Positions 2,267 to 11,685 of a stretch of 15,571 nucleotides of DNA are shown here, in pieces; position 1 is the first letter of the stretch; each line of letters begins with the position of its first letter. Below the pieces are notes generated by a model, which was not told the DNA's origin, searched no databases, and saw only the letters and a program-made list of their open reading frames with translations. Both the position numbers and the translations under genes were made by a program. The DNA lies in contig JAPLLP010000077.1 of the NCBI GenBank assembly GCA_026387515.1, forward strand, positions 3,524 to 19,094, written 5' to 3'. This DNA comes from Candidatus Omnitrophota bacterium. GTDB lineage: Bacteria > Omnitrophota > Koll11 > Gygaellales > Profunditerraquicolaceae.

Positions 2267-2271
2267 TATAA

Positions 2272-2377
2272 CACCCGGCCCAGATCGGCTACCCGGCGCA
2301 AATCTGAATTGCGCCAGTGTCCCCCGGTGGGGAAATTGGGCCGGTGTTCGCTGCTGCGAAGGAGGCGGGTTAAGAAA
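2272..2377 (+). ncRNA. Structured leader element, copy A
   Basis: A GC-rich 106-base spacer that begins five bases after the GT stop. It can fold as a closing stem P1 (CACCCGGCCC 2272-2281 with GGGCCGGTG 2338-2346, one bulged C). P1 encloses P2 (GGCGCAA 2295-2301 with TTGCGCC 2309-2315) and P3 (CCCC 2321-2324 with GGGG 2329-2332). A hairpin P4 (TTCGC 2347-2351, loop TGCT, GCGAA 2356-2360) directly abuts P1. The Shine-Dalgarno GGAGG (2361-2365) follows P4 immediately. The same architecture and core recur at 11439-11535. There is no U-tract, so it is not a Rho-independent terminator. I do not recognise it as a named riboswitch class. Confidence 0.6.
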
Positions 2378-3643
2378 ATGCTAATTCAAAAAAAGCGGTC
2401 GGCTTGTATTTCTTGCGGCGCGGCTCTGGCTGAGGACATAGTGATCATTGGTGAGCAGTATCCTAGCGCTGTTTTTGTCTCTGAAAATAGTCCGGTTGCG
2501 AGCGAACTAAAAGCTACCAGCCTTAATCTCACGCGTTGCACCAATGAAAGTTGCGGCTTGGTTCAACTCGCCAACGAATACGACCTTCAGTACGTTTTTG
2601 ACCATTATCCCTACGAAAGCGGCTCAACGGCTACGATGAAGCAGATCTTACAGGATGTTGTCGATGATGCCCAGCGCATAGCTACGCTTGGAAGCGATGA
2701 TGTTGTTCTTGATATCGGAGGAAACGATGGCACATTATTGAGCTTGATCCGTCAACCTGTGCGGGCCCGCGTGAACATTGACGCTGCTGCCGGAGTCGCG
2801 CAACTGGTTTCGGCCCCGGACTATCGGCACGTCCACGCCCGGTTCAGCGCGCAAGTTTATGGTGACCTGGGGCTTCCCAATCCGCGGCTCATTTTCAGCG
2901 TGGCGATGTTCTATCATCTGAACAATCCCATAGATTTCTGCCGCAGCATCAGCCAGATCATGTCGGATGATTCAGTTTGGGTGCTTCAGATGACATATCT
3001 GGGGACAATGTTGCGCGACAACATCTTTGATAATATTGTCCATGAACATGCGGCCTACTACTCATTATCATCGCTTGAGGCTTTATTGTCGCGGGTTGGC
3101 TTGCGTATCGCAGAGGCCCGCTGTATTGATAGTTACGGTGGTAGCCTTCGGGTCTTTATTGTCAAAGATCCGGAAAAGTTTCCCAAGAAATATTGGCGTA
3201 AGGACTATGTTGATCTTCAACGTTTTGAAACCGAGCAGCAAACCAACACCTACGAGGCGCTTTGCGCCTTCAATAGCCGCGCCCAGTTGCTCCGCGACTC
3301 TATCGGAGCGATCGTAGACCATCTGGTGCAACGCTACGGGCCATTGTGGGGGTTCGGCGCCAGTACCAAGGGCAATATGATCCTGCAGTATCTTGGGATC
3401 AAGACGGACCGCATGTCCTGTATTCTCGACAATAGTCCCAAAAAGATCGGCACATGGACTATGGGTTCGATGATCCCGATTGTCGATGAGGCATCGTATC
3501 TTGACCGTTTGCCTGAATACCTGTTCGTATTGCCTTATTATTATACAAATGCGTTTGTTAAGATCATTCAGAAGCGGATCTCTGCTGGACGCAAAGTGTA
3601 TCTATTTGTTCCATTGCCGTATCCGCATTTCGTAACAGTATAA
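2378..3643 (+). CDS. SAM-dependent sugar C-methyltransferase (TylC3/NovU/TcaB9 type)
   Basis: Starts at ATG 2378 (MLIQKKRSACISCG), 12 bases after GGAGG. An in-frame TTG at 2309 would translate the structured leader and is rejected. The 421-residue protein has the three-part family layout. First is an N-terminal zinc-binding region (C10, C13, C54, C59). Second is a class I methyltransferase fold with motif I VLDIGGNDGTLL (about 110-121). Third is a C-terminal Rossmann-like domain with GFGASTKGN (325-333) and PYYY near the end. The HEH..YY motif (H222, E223, H224, Y227, Y228) matches the catalytic/substrate region of NDP-keto-sugar C-methyltransferases. It probably adds a branch methyl (usually at C3) to a nucleotide-linked keto-sugar in the cytoplasm. 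All 24 arginines use CGN codons, which differs sharply from the gene upstream and suggests horizontal acquisition. First gene of a three-gene cassette. Confidence 0.88.
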   Translation: MLIQKKRSACISCGAALAEDIVIIGEQYPSAVFVSENSPVASELKATSLNLTRCTNESCGLVQLANEYDLQYVFDHYPYESGSTATMKQILQDVVDDAQRIATLGSDDVVLDIGGNDGTLLSLIRQPVRARVNIDAAAGVAQLVSAPDYRHVHARFSAQVYGDLGLPNPRLIFSVAMFYHLNNPIDFCRSISQIMSDDSVWVLQMTYLGTMLRDNIFDNIVHEHAAYYSLSSLEALLSRVGLRIAEARCIDSYGGSLRVFIVKDPEKFPKKYWRKDYVDLQRFETEQQTNTYEALCAFNSRAQLLRDSIGAIVDHLVQRYGPLWGFGASTKGNMILQYLGIKTDRMSCILDNSPKKIGTWTMGSMIPIVDEASYLDRLPEYLFVLPYYYTNAFVKIIQKRISAGRKVYLFVPLPYPHFVTV

Positions 3644-4139: not shown

Positions 4140-4846
4140 AAACCGTTGCCGTGGTTGGCGCGGCGGGTTTTGTGGGTACGCAAGTTGCCCGTGCCGTCGC
4201 AGCTAGTGGCCGTTATAACCTGATTCCCGTGTTGCGTAATGATCCTGCTAGAGACCTATTGGCCAAAGCGGAGATCGTCGTTTATGCCGCCAATCCGGCT
4301 CGACGCTTTCAGGCAGAAAAAGATCCAACGCATGATTTTGAAGAGACGGCTGAGAAGACGGCCAGGTTTCTTGCCTTGTCAGGCGGTAAACGTTTCGTAT
4401 TGGTTTCTACTTTATCCTGTCGAACCCAACTCAATACCAACTACGGACGTAACCGGCGTGCCTGCGAACTAATGGCCTTGGAAGATAACGCGCTTGTCAT
4501 TCGCTTGGGGCCAATGTACGGCGGCAATCGTACAGATGATACGCTCCATAGGATTCTTTCGGGTCTTGCGGTATTTGTGGCGGCTGAGACACGATATGCC
4601 TACGTTGATGTTGTCTGGGCAGGGGAAAAGATAGTTGAATTACTTGAAGAGCCCGGTGGTATCCGCGAGATAGGAGCCCGAAACGCTGTTTGCCTCGGAG
4701 ATCTACGTGATCATTTTGCCTCGGTCAGCACGTTCTCTGGCATTGACGACACGCAGATCCCCGAAGGTTGCAACGACGGTCCTGATGCCCGGGATGTATT
4801 TCGCTTTGCGCAGCAGTTAAGGCGAGCATACGGGTCGAAAGATTAA
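4136..4846 (+). CDS. NAD(P)-dependent epimerase/dehydratase-like SDR
   Basis: 236 residues. The N-terminus has the extended-SDR nucleotide-binding motif GAAGFVG (G8, G11, G14). The active-site region has STLS (91-94) and then Y103-G-R-N-R107. The usual catalytic YxxxK therefore reads YxxxR, a conservative change that may be normal for this subgroup. ETRYAYVDVVWAG and the terminal DDTQIPEGCNDGPDARDVF look like a conserved substrate-side region. The protein is shorter than typical sugar epimerases (about 300 residues or more). It probably reduces or epimerises the keto-sugar made by the two genes before it. It starts with a 4-base overlap with the cupin gene and ends with a 1-base overlap (TAATG) with the downstream glycosyltransferase. 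Arginine codons are mainly CGN, so it belongs with the cassette. Confidence 0.78.
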   Translation: MKTVAVVGAAGFVGTQVARAVAASGRYNLIPVLRNDPARDLLAKAEIVVYAANPARRFQAEKDPTHDFEETAEKTARFLALSGGKRFVLVSTLSCRTQLNTNYGRNRRACELMALEDNALVIRLGPMYGGNRTDDTLHRILSGLAVFVAAETRYAYVDVVWAGEKIVELLEEPGGIREIGARNAVCLGDLRDHFASVSTFSGIDDTQIPEGCNDGPDARDVFRFAQQLRRAYGSKD

Positions 4847-6078
4847 TGGAAAACACAGTTTCATTATTATCGGACAAAAAGATTATCGTAGCCAGTTATA
4901 CCCATTTTATCGACGGCAAAGAAACGACCATCGGAGGTCCGGCGTTAGCTTTGCGGGAGTATTTGCGGGATAAGGTCAACCTGTTAATGTTTATCCGGCA
5001 ACCCATGCCGCTCTCAGATACCCTGACTGCAACAGCAATGATTGTTCGTCGTGGGCAGGCTGTTACGATACGCAGGCTTCCCGTGATTAATTGGCCTTTT
5101 GGCAGGGAAAAGGCCATCTCCGCGCTCTATGTGGTCTTAAAATTGAGGGATATTTTTTCTGACCTGTATTTTGTTTTAAGTTCAGGTGTACATTTCGATA
5201 TATTTATCGGAGTGGAAGCGGTAAATGCCCTGGTAGGGGTTTTCTTGCGAGGGATCGGTTGTGTTGAAAAGGTAGTGTACTATAACCTTGATTATGGCGA
5301 ACACAGGCTTCCCAACCCCATCTTAAATTTTATCTTCCATTTTTTGGACCGCAAGGCGGCTTCTCACAGCGACTACACCTGGGGGCTTTCAGGCGAGATG
5401 GCCAAGGCGCGCAAAAGAATGGGGTTGGATGATGCGCGCGCTTCTTTCCATTTGGTCGTGCCTGTTGGGATACATTTTTCACGCATACGGCGCCTTCCGA
5501 CGAGAGTAATAGATAGGCAACGCATCGTATACCTGGGAGTTTTGTCAGAACATCAGGGTGTTCAGCTTATTTTGGAGGCGCTCCCGGATATAGTTAAGGA
5601 TATCCCGGGCGTTAAATTGACAGTAATTGGTACCGGCCCGCTTGAGGCGAAACTAAAATCCATGGTAAAGGAGAATAAGCTGGAGGGACATGTTGATTTT
5701 ACCGGCCTTATCCCCGATAAGGAAGCTGAAGATATTCTTTGCAGTTCTGCGCTCGGATTAGCCCCTTATTTAGACGACCCCCGTTCTAATAAAAAAACCA
5801 CCGAGCCTACAAAACCTAAAACCTACATGTCCTGCGGATTACCGGTAATAATTACCAGGGTTCCCCCTAATGCCGGTGAGATCGAAAAAAACGGGGCCGG
5901 TATTTTAATCGACTATGAGAAGAATGATTTAATAGATGCCGTAAAATTGTTGCTGACAAATGACCAGGTATATAATGAATATAGAAGCAGGGCTATCGAA
6001 TATGCCTCAAGATTTGATTGGCAGAATATTTTTGATAACGCCTTTAGACCATTATTATGGCAAGAAAATTTAAAGTAG
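4846..6078 (+). CDS. GT-B (GT4-like) glycosyltransferase, copy 2
   Basis: 410 residues, starting at ATG 4846, which overlaps the preceding TAA. It aligns end to end with the gene at 1052-2266. Shared blocks include ASYTH, TTIGGPAL, QPxPxSDTL, NWPFGRxKAIS, FDIFIGVE, YYNLDYxExR, SDYTW/ADYTW, VPxGI, GVQLI.EALP, VDFTG/VTFTG and TKPKxY..CGLPVIITRVPP. Roughly half the residues look identical by eye. It is most likely a cytoplasmic nucleotide-sugar-dependent transferase acting on a related but different acceptor or donor. As in copy 1, the usual acidic residue before the conserved Tyr is replaced (KPKTY). Arginine codon use is mixed. Its 3' end overlaps the radical SAM gene by 22 bases. Confidence 0.88.
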   Translation: MENTVSLLSDKKIIVASYTHFIDGKETTIGGPALALREYLRDKVNLLMFIRQPMPLSDTLTATAMIVRRGQAVTIRRLPVINWPFGREKAISALYVVLKLRDIFSDLYFVLSSGVHFDIFIGVEAVNALVGVFLRGIGCVEKVVYYNLDYGEHRLPNPILNFIFHFLDRKAASHSDYTWGLSGEMAKARKRMGLDDARASFHLVVPVGIHFSRIRRLPTRVIDRQRIVYLGVLSEHQGVQLILEALPDIVKDIPGVKLTVIGTGPLEAKLKSMVKENKLEGHVDFTGLIPDKEAEDILCSSALGLAPYLDDPRSNKKTTEPTKPKTYMSCGLPVIITRVPPNAGEIEKNGAGILIDYEKNDLIDAVKLLLTNDQVYNEYRSRAIEYASRFDWQNIFDNAFRPLLWQENLK

Positions 6079-7508: not shown

Positions 7509-9418
<1,910 letters not shown>

Positions 9419-9501: not shown

Positions 9502-11034
9502 TTGACCTATGCGCCTAGCGGGATCCGGCAGTTCATTCAGGCCATGCCATTATGGTTAAAGCAGAAGCTTTGGATCCCCGAGATCATCAAAAAGGAATTA
9601 AATTATAAGGGCAAGATTTTATTCTCCGGCCACCATGAATCTCACGCGGCAAGCGCTTTTTACCCTTCACCGTTTAAAGAAGCGGCTTTTTTGACCATAG
9701 ACGGAGTAGGTGAATGGGAGACCGCCAGTTTCGGTGTTGGACGCGGAAATGATTTAGAGCTAGAGTGCTACCTGCGTTTCCCGCATTCGCTGGGATTGCT
9801 ATATTCGGCCTTTACTTATTATGCCGGTTTTAAGGTAAATTCGGGAGAATATAAACTTATGGGGCTTGCTCCCTATGGAGAGCCGAGATTCGCGGATTTG
9901 ATCTTAAATGAACTTATTGATCTTAAAGATGACGGTTCTTTTAAACTGAATATGGCTTATTTTGGCTATTGTAACGGCCTGCGCATGACTAACGGGAAGT
10001 TTGACAGGCTTTTTGGAGGATCGCCTCGAAAACCGGAGACCAAGATCAGCGAAAAAGATATGGATATAGCTGCTTCGATCCAGAAGGTTACCGAAGAAAT
10101 TATGTTGAGGATGAGCCGGCACGTGCGTAAAGTTACCGGGCAGGATAAGCTTTGTCTTGCCGGCGGTGTGGCCTTGAACTGCGTGGGAAATGGCCGCATC
10201 CTGAGCGATGGGATTTTTAAGGATATCTGGATTCAACCGGCAAGCGGAGATGCCGGAGGGGCTCTTGGGGCAGCGTTATTGGTTTGGTATAAATATTTAG
10301 GCAACGGACGTTTTACGGATGAAACCCACGATGTGCAGCAGGCCTCTTTATTAGGCCCGGAGTATAAAGACGCAGAAATCGAATCTTTCCTCAAAGAAGA
10401 AAGGGCCCTTTATCGTAAATTAAACAGAGAAGAAATCGTCCGGTTTATCGCCGACTTGATTGTTAAGGGAAACGTGATCGGTTGGTTTCAGGGTAGGATG
10501 GAGTTCGGGCCAAGGGCCTTGGGCTCACGCAGCATTATCGGAGACGCCAGAAGTCCCGAGATGCAGTCTAAAATGAATTTGAAGATTAAATATCGGGAAT
10601 CATTTAGGCCATTTGAGCTGGATTGCCCAAGTCCCTACATGCTTTTGGTGGCAGGGGTAAAGACTGCAAAACAAGAGCTTGTTGATGCTAGTAGGTTAAA
10701 GGGGTTTGATAAATTAAAGGTTAGGCGTTCTCAGATTCCGGCGGTTACCCATGTTGATTTCTCGGCCAGGATTCAAACGGTTAGCCGTGAGGATAACCCC
10801 TTATATTATGATATGATTGAGCACTTTGCGCAAAATACCGGATGCCCGGTAATCATCAATACATCTTTCAACGTGCGCGGCGAGCCATTGGTGTGCACTC
10901 CGCAGGACGCCTTTAAATGTTTCATGCGCACGGAGATGGATTATTTGATGATTGGTAGTTTTATTTTAGACAAGAAAGACCAAAAGCCGCTTGATAAAGA
11001 CATAAAGTGGCAAAAGGTATTTGAGCTGGATTAG
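9502..11034 (+). CDS. O-carbamoyltransferase (NodU/TobZ/SxtI family), main part
   Basis: Family similarity in this frame begins at 9418; the first possible start codon I see is TTG 9502. The product transfers carbamoyl from carbamoyl phosphate, through carbamoyl-AMP, to a hydroxyl, usually of a sugar. Visible: metal-site histidines in HHESHAASAFYPS (H44, H45, H48), TIDGVGEWE, EYKLMGLAPYGEP, CLAGGVALNC, IQPASGDAGGALGAAL, WFQGRMEFGPRALGSRS, PAVTHVDFSARIQTV and NTSFNVRGEPLVCTP. Intact homologues are about 590-610 residues; the two fragments together reach about 576. Besides the upstream frameshift, about 13 conserved residues (APSVL....EYF) appear missing in frame between FRPF and ELDCPSPYMLLVA, at base 10614/10615. 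The next genes are SxtJ-like and DUF5989 (SxtK-like), the usual companions. As written the gene would probably be inactive. Confidence 0.88.
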   Translation: MTYAPSGIRQFIQAMPLWLKQKLWIPEIIKKELNYKGKILFSGHHESHAASAFYPSPFKEAAFLTIDGVGEWETASFGVGRGNDLELECYLRFPHSLGLLYSAFTYYAGFKVNSGEYKLMGLAPYGEPRFADLILNELIDLKDDGSFKLNMAYFGYCNGLRMTNGKFDRLFGGSPRKPETKISEKDMDIAASIQKVTEEIMLRMSRHVRKVTGQDKLCLAGGVALNCVGNGRILSDGIFKDIWIQPASGDAGGALGAALLVWYKYLGNGRFTDETHDVQQASLLGPEYKDAEIESFLKEERALYRKLNREEIVRFIADLIVKGNVIGWFQGRMEFGPRALGSRSIIGDARSPEMQSKMNLKIKYRESFRPFELDCPSPYMLLVAGVKTAKQELVDASRLKGFDKLKVRRSQIPAVTHVDFSARIQTVSREDNPLYYDMIEHFAQNTGCPVIINTSFNVRGEPLVCTPQDAFKCFMRTEMDYLMIGSFILDKKDQKPLDKDIKWQKVFELD

Positions 11035-11045
11035 TTTTTGAAAAA

Positions 11046-11435
11046 ATGGAAAAACTGGATCTGAGCAAAAAAGGGCTAAAGAAATTCGGGATAACTATGG
11101 GAATAGCTTTTTTGGTTATCGCTCTTCTGATTTTAATAAGGCACAGGCATAACCCATGTCCATTTTTTATCGTTTCTGCCTTATTTTTTGTTTTAGGGGT
11201 AATCTTTCCGTCGTTCTTAAGGCCTGTTTATATTTTTTGGATGCGCCTAGCGTATGTATTAGGCTGGATTAATACGAGGCTGTTGTTGTTGGCTATGTTT
11301 TATTTAATCTTTTCTCCTGTAGGCTTGTTCTTGCGTCTTATGCGTATTGACCCTTTAAAGAGGGCAATAGATAAAGAGAAGGATACCTATTGGATAAAAA
11401 AAGAAGACAGGGTTGATTACGAACGTCAATTTTAA
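11046..11435 (+). CDS. SxtJ-family small membrane protein
   Basis: 129 residues with an amphipathic basic N-terminus and about three hydrophobic segments (roughly 14-31, 38-57 and 76-98). A short charged C-terminus follows (DPLKRAIDKEKDTYWIKKEDR). The FPSFLRPVYIFWMRLAYVLGWINTR region and the final D..K.A....TYW match the SxtJ membrane protein family, which sits next to carbamoyltransferases in saxitoxin and many polysaccharide clusters. Biochemical role is unknown. It may help present the carbamoyl acceptor or anchor the transferase at the membrane; that is inference. It lies 11 bases after the carbamoyltransferase with no strong Shine-Dalgarno. The leader element copy B begins three bases after its stop. 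Confidence 0.85.
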   Translation: MEKLDLSKKGLKKFGITMGIAFLVIALLILIRHRHNPCPFFIVSALFFVLGVIFPSFLRPVYIFWMRLAYVLGWINTRLLLLAMFYLIFSPVGLFLRLMRIDPLKRAIDKEKDTYWIKKEDRVDYERQF

Positions 11436-11438
11436 ACG

Positions 11439-11535
11439 CACCCGGCTATAAAGCACCCCGCCTTATCGGATCGGCGGGTGCGCCGCCTTCTGCGGCGGAA
11501 TTGGGCCGGTGCTCACTACTGTGAGGAGGTAGGGA
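11439..11535 (+). ncRNA. Structured leader element, copy B
   Basis: A GC-rich spacer between the SxtJ-like and DUF5989 genes. P1 pairs CACCCGGC (11439-11446) with GCCGGTG (11505-11511), leaving one bulged C exactly as in copy A. Inside P1 are P2 (GCACCCCGCC 11453-11462 with GGCGGGTGC 11473-11481, one bulge) and P3 (CCGCC 11483-11487 with GGCGG 11494-11498). P4 (CTCAC 11512-11516, loop TACT, GTGAG 11521-11525) abuts P1 and overlaps the Shine-Dalgarno GGAGG (11525-11529). The core AATTGGGCCGGTG (11499-11511) is identical to 2334-2346. P4 pairs differ from copy A but keep pairing. No U-tract follows, so it is not an intrinsic terminator. Confidence 0.6.
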
Positions 11536-11685
11536 ATGAGTATTCTGAGGGAATTCTGGGATTTTCTGAAGGTGCGTAAAAAATGGTGGCTGGCGCCAAT
11601 TATTATTTGTTTATTACTTTTGGGCGCGCTTATTTTCTTTACGCAATCTTCGGCGGTAGCCCCGTTTATTTATACGCTATTTTAG
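11536..11685 (+). CDS. DUF5989 (SxtK-like) small membrane protein
   Basis: A 49-residue gene, ATG 11536, TAG 11683-11685, six bases after GGAGG. The protein begins MSILREFWDFLKVRKKWWL, continues with one hydrophobic segment (about 20-36), and ends TQSSAVAPFIYTLF. This is the characteristic DUF5989 pattern: an amphipathic FWxFLKxRKKWW head, a single membrane helix, and a Q.SA.APFIYTLF tail. These proteins occur with carbamoyltransferase and SxtJ genes and correspond to the small SxtK of saxitoxin clusters. Molecular function is unknown; the size and helix suggest a membrane adaptor. Its start is directly below the structured leader, so leader folding could control its translation. Confidence 0.88.
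   Translation: MSILREFWDFLKVRKKWWLAPIIICLLLLGALIFFTQSSAVAPFIYTLF

Follow-up and report, generated by a model that had tools for sequence, protein, structure and literature searches.

The two spacers A and B of the DNA stretch analysed here (15,571 nt of an Omnitrophota contig, hereafter the window) very probably carry copies of a family of non-coding dispersed DNA elements of Omnitrophota, which is built from units of ~44 nt and would have spread in a transposition-like manner, with its insertions being tolerated. The units occur in many copies, are present or absent between relatives, form tandems as well as nests of two and three levels, are inserted between ..GG and AATT of the HP1 loops of other units, and mostly lie in sense direction immediately 5' of a Shine-Dalgarno (SD) sequence.

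One unit consists of two hairpins: i) HP1, CAC[C]YGGCGC–TTATNGGAATT–GCGCCRGTG, with a one-base bulge in its 5' arm, and ii) HP2, TNNNC–TNNT–GNNNA, which begins at the base right after HP1. In both window copies, as in many matches of model R1 (built from the two window copies, with P1 and P4 paired, the rest unpaired and SD columns included), a whole second unit sits inside the HP1 loop of the first. The original prediction had described two spacers sharing a bulged closing stem, an identical core and a hairpin running into the SD, and the sequence is as described; its P1 and P4 make up the outer unit and its P2 and P3 the inner one. It had also placed two hairpins in the interior of each copy, which is correct, while holding them to be completely different in sequence, which is not: the inner pair of both copies is a second copy of the outer pair, with the same CAC[C]Y...RGTG bulged hairpin and the same kind of abutting hairpin. 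The features are given below, together with the support from R2 (a model built from 24 single units of other genomes, with neither the window nor SD columns included) or from L389, the contig of the closest relative compared.

2267..2377, forward strand: site A in full (comparison with L389)
2272..2360, forward strand: element A, a two-level nest (sequence; R2; covariation)
2272-2281 / 2338-2346, forward strand: arms of the outer HP1 of A, with the inner unit within its loop; outer HP2 at 2347-2360
2290..2333, forward strand: inner unit of A (R2, E 2.5e-9)
2290-2319, forward strand: inner HP1 of A (TAC[C]CGGCGC...GCGCCAGTG); inner HP2 at 2320-2333 (TCCCCCGGTGGGGA)
2334..2346, forward strand: 3' half of the outer HP1 of A, AATT (remaining loop) plus GGGCCGGTG
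2361..2365, forward strand: SD GGAGG of A, adjoining the outer HP2
2378-2380, forward strand: ATG, start codon of the methyltransferase gene (PF08484/PF13489) after A
11436..11535, forward strand: site B in full (comparison with L389)
11439..11525, forward strand: element B, a two-level nest (sequence; grammar parse)
11439-11446 / 11505-11511, forward strand: arms of the outer HP1 of B; outer HP2 at 11512-11525
11454..11497, forward strand: inner unit of B (R2, E 3e-4; grammar parse)
11454-11480, forward strand: inner HP1 of B (short TTATCGGAT-loop type); inner HP2 at 11481-11497
11525..11529, forward strand: SD GGAGG of B, overlapping the end of the outer HP2
11536-11538, forward strand: ATG, start codon of the DUF5989 gene after B

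Within the window, CACC-C-GGC is present at 2272 and at 11439, and the 13-mer core AATTGGGCCGGTG is identical at 2334-2346 and 11499-11511, its only two exact occurrences, with a repeat of 31 nt (81%) around it; in A the inner unit lies directly 5' of the AATT of the outer loop. With up to three mismatches the core was no commoner in the window than chance (6 matches vs 5.29 expected). P1, P2 and P3 appear together in the MFE structure of B and in the centroid of A, while the MFE of A pairs P1 differently and in that of B a different hairpin, which includes the SD, stands in place of P4, and the stability of the folds relative to shuffles was unremarkable (z -1.11 and -1.43 for the two copies). 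Two copies are thin evidence by themselves; the case goes beyond chance because the window-free R2 finds the inner units and because the stems covary in an alignment of 53 rows.

A search for further copies in related genomes, which had been proposed as a check, found them. The 384 genomes searched were drawn evenly from a larger group and are taken as Omnitrophota by inference. R1 matched in 60 of them at E<=1, and its 62 best matches, in 60 loci, were read by eye. With the best 16 candidates per genome scored, R2 placed units in 88 of the 384 at E<=0.001 and none at this threshold in the other 296. Each of 12 genomes chosen as positive held at least 9-68 R2 units at E<=0.01 (best 150 candidates per genome); these are many near-identical copies at unrelated sites, as a dispersed element should show, and five identical copies stand at different loci of genome G462. 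Comparison of 23 single copies showed similarity to drop left of CAC and right of AGGAG. On the other hand, R2 found no unit in 52 unrelated loci (646 kb), and units in only one of 387 control genomes (G301, with two); this control set consists of 'relatives' of G007, that is, one phylum with spill-over from others, and at least one of its members, the unit-free G369, also belongs to the Omnitrophota set. Both G301 units (L386 and L387) adjoin an SD. Among 57 carbamoyltransferase relatives in viral contigs the core AATTGGGCCGGTG was absent, and the 20 of these that were run against R2 gave no match. Two plain DNA patterns were discarded, as their matches (32 for a strict pattern over genome contigs and 29 for a looser one over viral contigs) were taken as chance on reading the sequences.

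Units were found free-standing (L176, L191, L209, L181, L182, L331 and L366) and, by eye, in tandem (L171, L187, L209, L218 and L223) and in nests of three levels (L265:9427, L272:7682 and L206). A strict parser, which locates units, excises them and searches again, resolved the 62 R1 matches into 22 two-level, 29 one-level and 11 without a unit. In the window it returned B as a two-level nest and missed A owing to a single C.A mismatch within the inner stem; when the window was Markov-resampled 20 times, it found 0.35 units per copy on average and no nests. After in-silico excision of the inner unit, the outer loop was mostly the single-unit consensus (e.g., TTATATGAATT and TAATCGGAATT), with lengths of 5-14 as compared to 7-12 for single-unit loops, and at the junctions the inner CAC mostly followed ..GG or ..G, while the inner HP2 was mostly followed by AATT or ATT. 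Thus a fixed four-hairpin RNA fold, which the two window copies alone would resemble, is extremely improbable beside a nest of two units, given the free-standing units (e.g., L331, L366 and L176), the three-level nests just named, and the occurrence of single and double forms at the same gene. Upstream of the same small gene, L209 (genome G596) and L218 (G716) share a two-level plus tandem layout, with stems that differ in sequence, and in L201/L269 a two-level element follows an apparent tRNA 3' end, by eye.

Pairing within the units is under constraint. Covariation was read from alignment A6, a MAFFT alignment of 53 rows (window copy A and 52 of the 62 R1 matches; lengths outside 92-112 nt, duplicates and window copy B were left out, and the outer HP2 was unscored); A6 was relied on because the rows of A4 had been preselected for pairing, which biases its covariation, and A5 was fitted to the model. 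Both sides had changed in 21 of 23 pairs, with 92.0% of cells paired; none of 500 shuffles scored as high on any measure, and sliding the partner lowered pairing to 34-51%. The inner stems are absent from R1, the model that had found the rows, while the outer HP1 stem is present in it: for the inner HP1, eight of nine pairs had changed on both sides with 96.0% paired, for the outer HP1 eight of nine with 92.6%, and for the inner HP2 five of five with 82-86%. In A5 (64 distinct units) the numbers were six of nine pairs for HP1 and four of five for HP2. Covarying stems, as in a structured RNA, are therefore present, and the inference of a selected fold, which the original prediction had drawn from compensatory changes between two copies, gains support from the 53 rows; the covariation it had asked for was seen in eight of nine pairs for P1 and, in the structure-fitted A5, in four of five for the P4-type second hairpin. 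In four loci from three genomes (L177, L212, L221 and L169), P1-P3 are almost identical (slightly changed in L169), while the HP2 by the SD differs and is paired in each.

Dispersed copies share history, so covariation marks a constraint on pairing and not necessarily an RNA function. Moreover, P1-P3 of A6 contain 49 G.U and 38 A.C cells (12 and 4 in the structure-fitted A5), and a fold acting solely as sense RNA should favour G.U by more than 49 to 38; a constraint at the DNA level, or a mixed one, is thus possible.

The position of units relative to genes was assessed in 60 loci around R2 matches of six genomes, in which R2 gives 72 units; SD placement was not built in, since R2 has no SD columns (R1 has them and hence was unused here). 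A sense start codon with an SD lay within 110 nt downstream of 62 of the 72 units, as compared to 2 of 72 on the opposite strand and side. Under a tighter rule (SD and start 6-16 nt after HP2) 56 of the 72 qualified, 49 of these 56 at 9-13 nt, while the remaining 16 were partly inner or first tandem units and partly located elsewhere. Units began right after a stop codon in 9 of the 39 cases with a recognisable upstream gene. In 325 kb of genome G552, 19 of 22 units (E<0.01) pointed toward a same-strand gene and three did not (L260:19095, L272:9538 and L265:18643), as judged by a simple ORF caller. Since most units are in sense and immediately precede an SD, they would form the intercistronic leader of the gene that follows. 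The reading as a dispersed element with a ribosome-binding site (RBS) of its own, one of the two first offered, is hence well supported by the many copies per genome, mostly in sense and directly 5' of an SD. In L372:701-746 (genome G678), an R2 unit lies within an open frame of 329 codons, perhaps as an insertion into a gene.

Such a position would also suit an RBS insulator, i.e., hairpins kept for holding upstream sequence off the SD, although we consider this quite improbable. HP2 adjoins the SD, and SD openness in 54 leaders was 0.550 for the native sequence vs 0.505 with the element shuffled (35 of 54 higher, p 0.06); removal of the element in silico, on the other hand, had little effect on openness (0.550 native and 0.527 without the element; 31 of 54 higher, p 0.31), so that the test on these 54 leaders was not significant, and the lone-fold MFE of copy B pairs part of the SD.

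At orthologous sites units are present in some genomes and absent from others. L389, a contig of genome G552, holds 11 of the 15 window genes in conserved order; those not located at the expected place are the first two ORFs, the radical SAM gene and the second group 1 glycosyltransferase. R2 finds no unit on it at E<=0.1, and copies A and B are both absent: site B is TAATAGGAGCTAAGAATG, with stop, SD and start but without an element, its sequence TTTTAATAGGAGCTAAGAATG being a clean spacer, while site A is TGATCCTTAACGCGGGAAGTTGGTTAGAAAAATG, which has no unit but carries CGCGGG, which could be a deletion scar instead of the original empty site. In the SxtJ-DUF5989 spacers of 13 relatives (L226-L238, L226 being from G552) the strict parser found no unit, while by eye there is a clear but different nest in L232, a possible remnant in L237 and nothing in the other 11. 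No target-site duplication was seen at sites A and B as compared base by base with L389, the only two sites so compared, and the ends of the element, CAC and HP2, are not mutual inverted repeats; on both counts it differs from a MITE in the strict sense.

Depth of nesting varies between orthologous sites as well. The comparison had 152 entries (62 R1 matches, 69 of the 72 units, 19 of 24 rows from the ORF-caller analysis and the two window copies), including some elements twice, which left 124 distinct downstream proteins. The same downstream gene recurred across genomes in 15 groups with 34 members; one group, made up of two short lipoproteins, is possibly spurious. Inspection by eye showed about nine groups in which a single unit in one genome corresponds to a two-level nest in another: P-II, PilT-like, phosphoheptose isomerase, aspartate kinase, aminotransferase, ClpP, L370/L223, L383/L179 and a further one, which we take to be L6 (named by reading alone). 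The most direct case is L190 vs L185, which have a similar flank and the same HP2 and start, with a full unit held in the loop of L185. Shared-site pairs numbered 21, vs 5.3 expected for independent placement among 1300 genes (a crude estimate from a non-random sample). As sites are common to genomes above this expectation, vertical inheritance or function also matters.

These shared sites, together with the covariation, the sense orientation and the near-fixed distance to the start codon, are what a cis-regulatory RNA class would predict, that is, a sensor or protein-binding leader controlling translation of the downstream gene and selected at each site. We nevertheless consider this reading unlikely, for several reasons: i) no shared regulon is visible among the 20 named downstream genes of G462 and G519; ii) both window sites are empty in L389; iii) the units nest to three levels; iv) neither window copy is matched by Rfam; v) of the 23 R2-positive genomes tested, only 1 has CsrA. 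The genes under i) are those of the 30 downstream proteins computed for the two genomes that were scanned by NCBIfam. Their best matches (several with scores under the curated cut-off, and many from proteins cut by the locus end) were PstB, PAPS reductase, PurU, P-II, S20, PilT, a hydrogenase/sulfite-reductase subunit, an aminotransferase, SHMT, S7, ClpP, phosphoglucosamine mutase, ParB, aspartate kinase, EF-Tu, L20, GroEL, an acetyl-CoA decarbonylase/synthase subunit, S8 and phosphoheptose isomerase. The suggestion of a new cis-regulatory RNA upstream of envelope genes is thus not supported, the named genes being unrelated and both copies being absent from the closest relative compared.

Neither window copy had an Rfam match up to E 5, in agreement with the first impression that it matches no riboswitch consensus, and with no regulon in sight a riboswitch was rejected. 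In 10 further loci one Rfam match overlapped an element, namely cspA in L209 (1461-1806), which scored 49.5 bits vs a gathering score of 78 and overlaps both the element at 1501-1541 and the downstream gene; the match is probably due to the coding part. CsrA as a reader of the loop GGA was likewise rejected, with PF02599 present in 1 of 23 R2-positive and 4 of 19 R2-negative genomes.

For the dispersed element we infer a route of spread and an effect on mRNA: i) units would spread by a transposition-like process supplied in trans; ii) they would land 5' of an SD-like sequence or within the loop of a unit of their own; iii) insertions sparing the stop codon and the SD would be tolerated and so persist; iv) once transcribed, the hairpins may perhaps influence processing, decay or initiation of the mRNA, which may be why some sites are kept. 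If mobile, the unit would to our knowledge be among the smallest mobile units, and its landing would follow a rule linked to the ribosome-binding site; if function keeps some of the sites in place, a repeat would have been turned into a standard 5' leader. In this phylum, where genetics is almost lacking, a ~44-nt element that also occurs within its own loop makes up the leaders of essential genes (such as S7, S8, S20, L20, EF-Tu, GroEL and ClpP), the depth of a nest is a relative record of successive insertions, and the one- and two-level forms of orthologous sites make mobility and function directly testable.

As to what moves the units, they might be REP-like or IS200-type passengers, transferred as single-stranded hairpins by a Y1 (RAYT) transposase, a route that we regard as possible though doubtful. 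The hairpins are short and bulged, their placement is strand-polar, and Y1 genes occurred in all 23 R2-positive genomes tested (including G431, counted as positive since it carries units per R2); moreover, A.C was kept nearly as often as G.U in P1-P3 of A6, as expected if it is the DNA hairpin that counts, and one unit of genome G460 (C24) lies ~2.6 kb from a Y1 gene. However, Y1 genes also occurred in 16 of 19 R2-negative genomes, G.U exceeds A.C in the structure-fitted A5, and the hairpins beside a Y1 transposase gene that characterise REP/RAYT systems were not seen, as 20 Y1 loci (~3 kb each, 62 kb in all, one locus per genome, 16 from R2-positive genomes) held no unit.

Another proposal, to which we give a small chance, is that the unit is a self-propagating mRNA leader, which would move as RNA or as a single strand exposed by transcription and land only at single-stranded SD-like purines (SDs between cistrons and the AAGGAATT loop of units like itself). 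Such a landing rule would explain strand polarity, near-fixed spacing and nesting together, and, if true, the leader would represent a mobile element of a new class, guided by RNA or by ribosome sites.

Among known systems, the dispersed element of Omnitrophota resembles in form the mitochondrial GC clusters (GC42) and double-hairpin elements (PMC4478555 and PMC2800124, with Paquin et al. 2000 cited there), which in the parts available of these sources are likewise very short, GC-rich hairpin elements that are sporadic between relatives. GC42 is described as having stand-alone and merged forms at the same homologous site (PMC4478555), reminiscent of the single and nested units here, and the Omnitrophota unit too has two adjacent hairpins with merged or nested forms; it works like a mitochondrial double-hairpin element, with common descent not being claimed. 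In contrast, those elements are mitochondrial and the available parts of PMC4478555 and PMC2800124 do not describe SD-abutting sense leaders, while in the Omnitrophota unit the bulge is strand-specific and the landing point within its own loop is near-fixed.

Bacterial repeats offer further parallels. NEMIS/Correia, ERIC, RUP and RPE, as summarised in the part available of PMC2229807, are small intergenic repeats that are co-transcribed and fold in the mRNA, and NEMIS and ERIC have been proposed to affect mRNA cleavage or stability, ERIC in an orientation-dependent manner; these repeats are however ~100-200 bp long, and most of them have terminal inverted repeats and several show target duplications, whereas the unit here is of ~44 nt, self-nesting and mostly SD-abutting. 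REP/REPIN sequences with RAYT transposases share short imperfect hairpins, high copy number and intergenic location, judging from portions of PMC3116915 and PMC2817692, while the Omnitrophota unit differs in its absence from the 20 Y1-transposase loci, in its position at start codons and polarity, and in its nesting. The TAACTGA repeats of Beggiatoaceae are also intergenic, in sense and just upstream of start codons, including those of ribosomal-protein genes, with no common downstream function and a mechanism given as unknown in the available text of PMC4679880; according to the same text they are direct repeats of 7 nt for which hardly any fold is predicted and which overlap the position expected for the SD, whereas the Omnitrophota element is folded and precedes an intact SD. 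A published description of the element was not recognised in a brief search of the open-access literature; in PMC10066038, where Omnitrophota genomes were annotated with Rfam, the main text contains none of the words repeat, riboswitch and leader.

The genes around the two copies include glycosyltransferases, a methyltransferase, radical SAM, carbamoyltransferase, SxtJ and DUF5989 genes, and others. At least 120 relatives of the carbamoyltransferase showed 73-83% identity, and the names among the matches listed are all Candidatus Omnitrophica/Omnitrophota. The trio of carbamoyltransferase, SxtJ and DUF5989 (window 9502-11685) also occurs in genomes of a set drawn from outside Omnitrophota, and DUF5989 (49 aa) is 100% identical between the window and L389. 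A protein of 598 aa (window 7509-9305) has no Pfam match at E 0.001, and its relatives adjoin the carbamoyltransferase in L389, L390 and L392 (45-52%). The group 1 glycosyltransferases at 1052-2266 and 4846-6078 are apparently diverged duplicates of each other, as judged from the repeats D1 and D2 and from the same L389 gene being matched by both.
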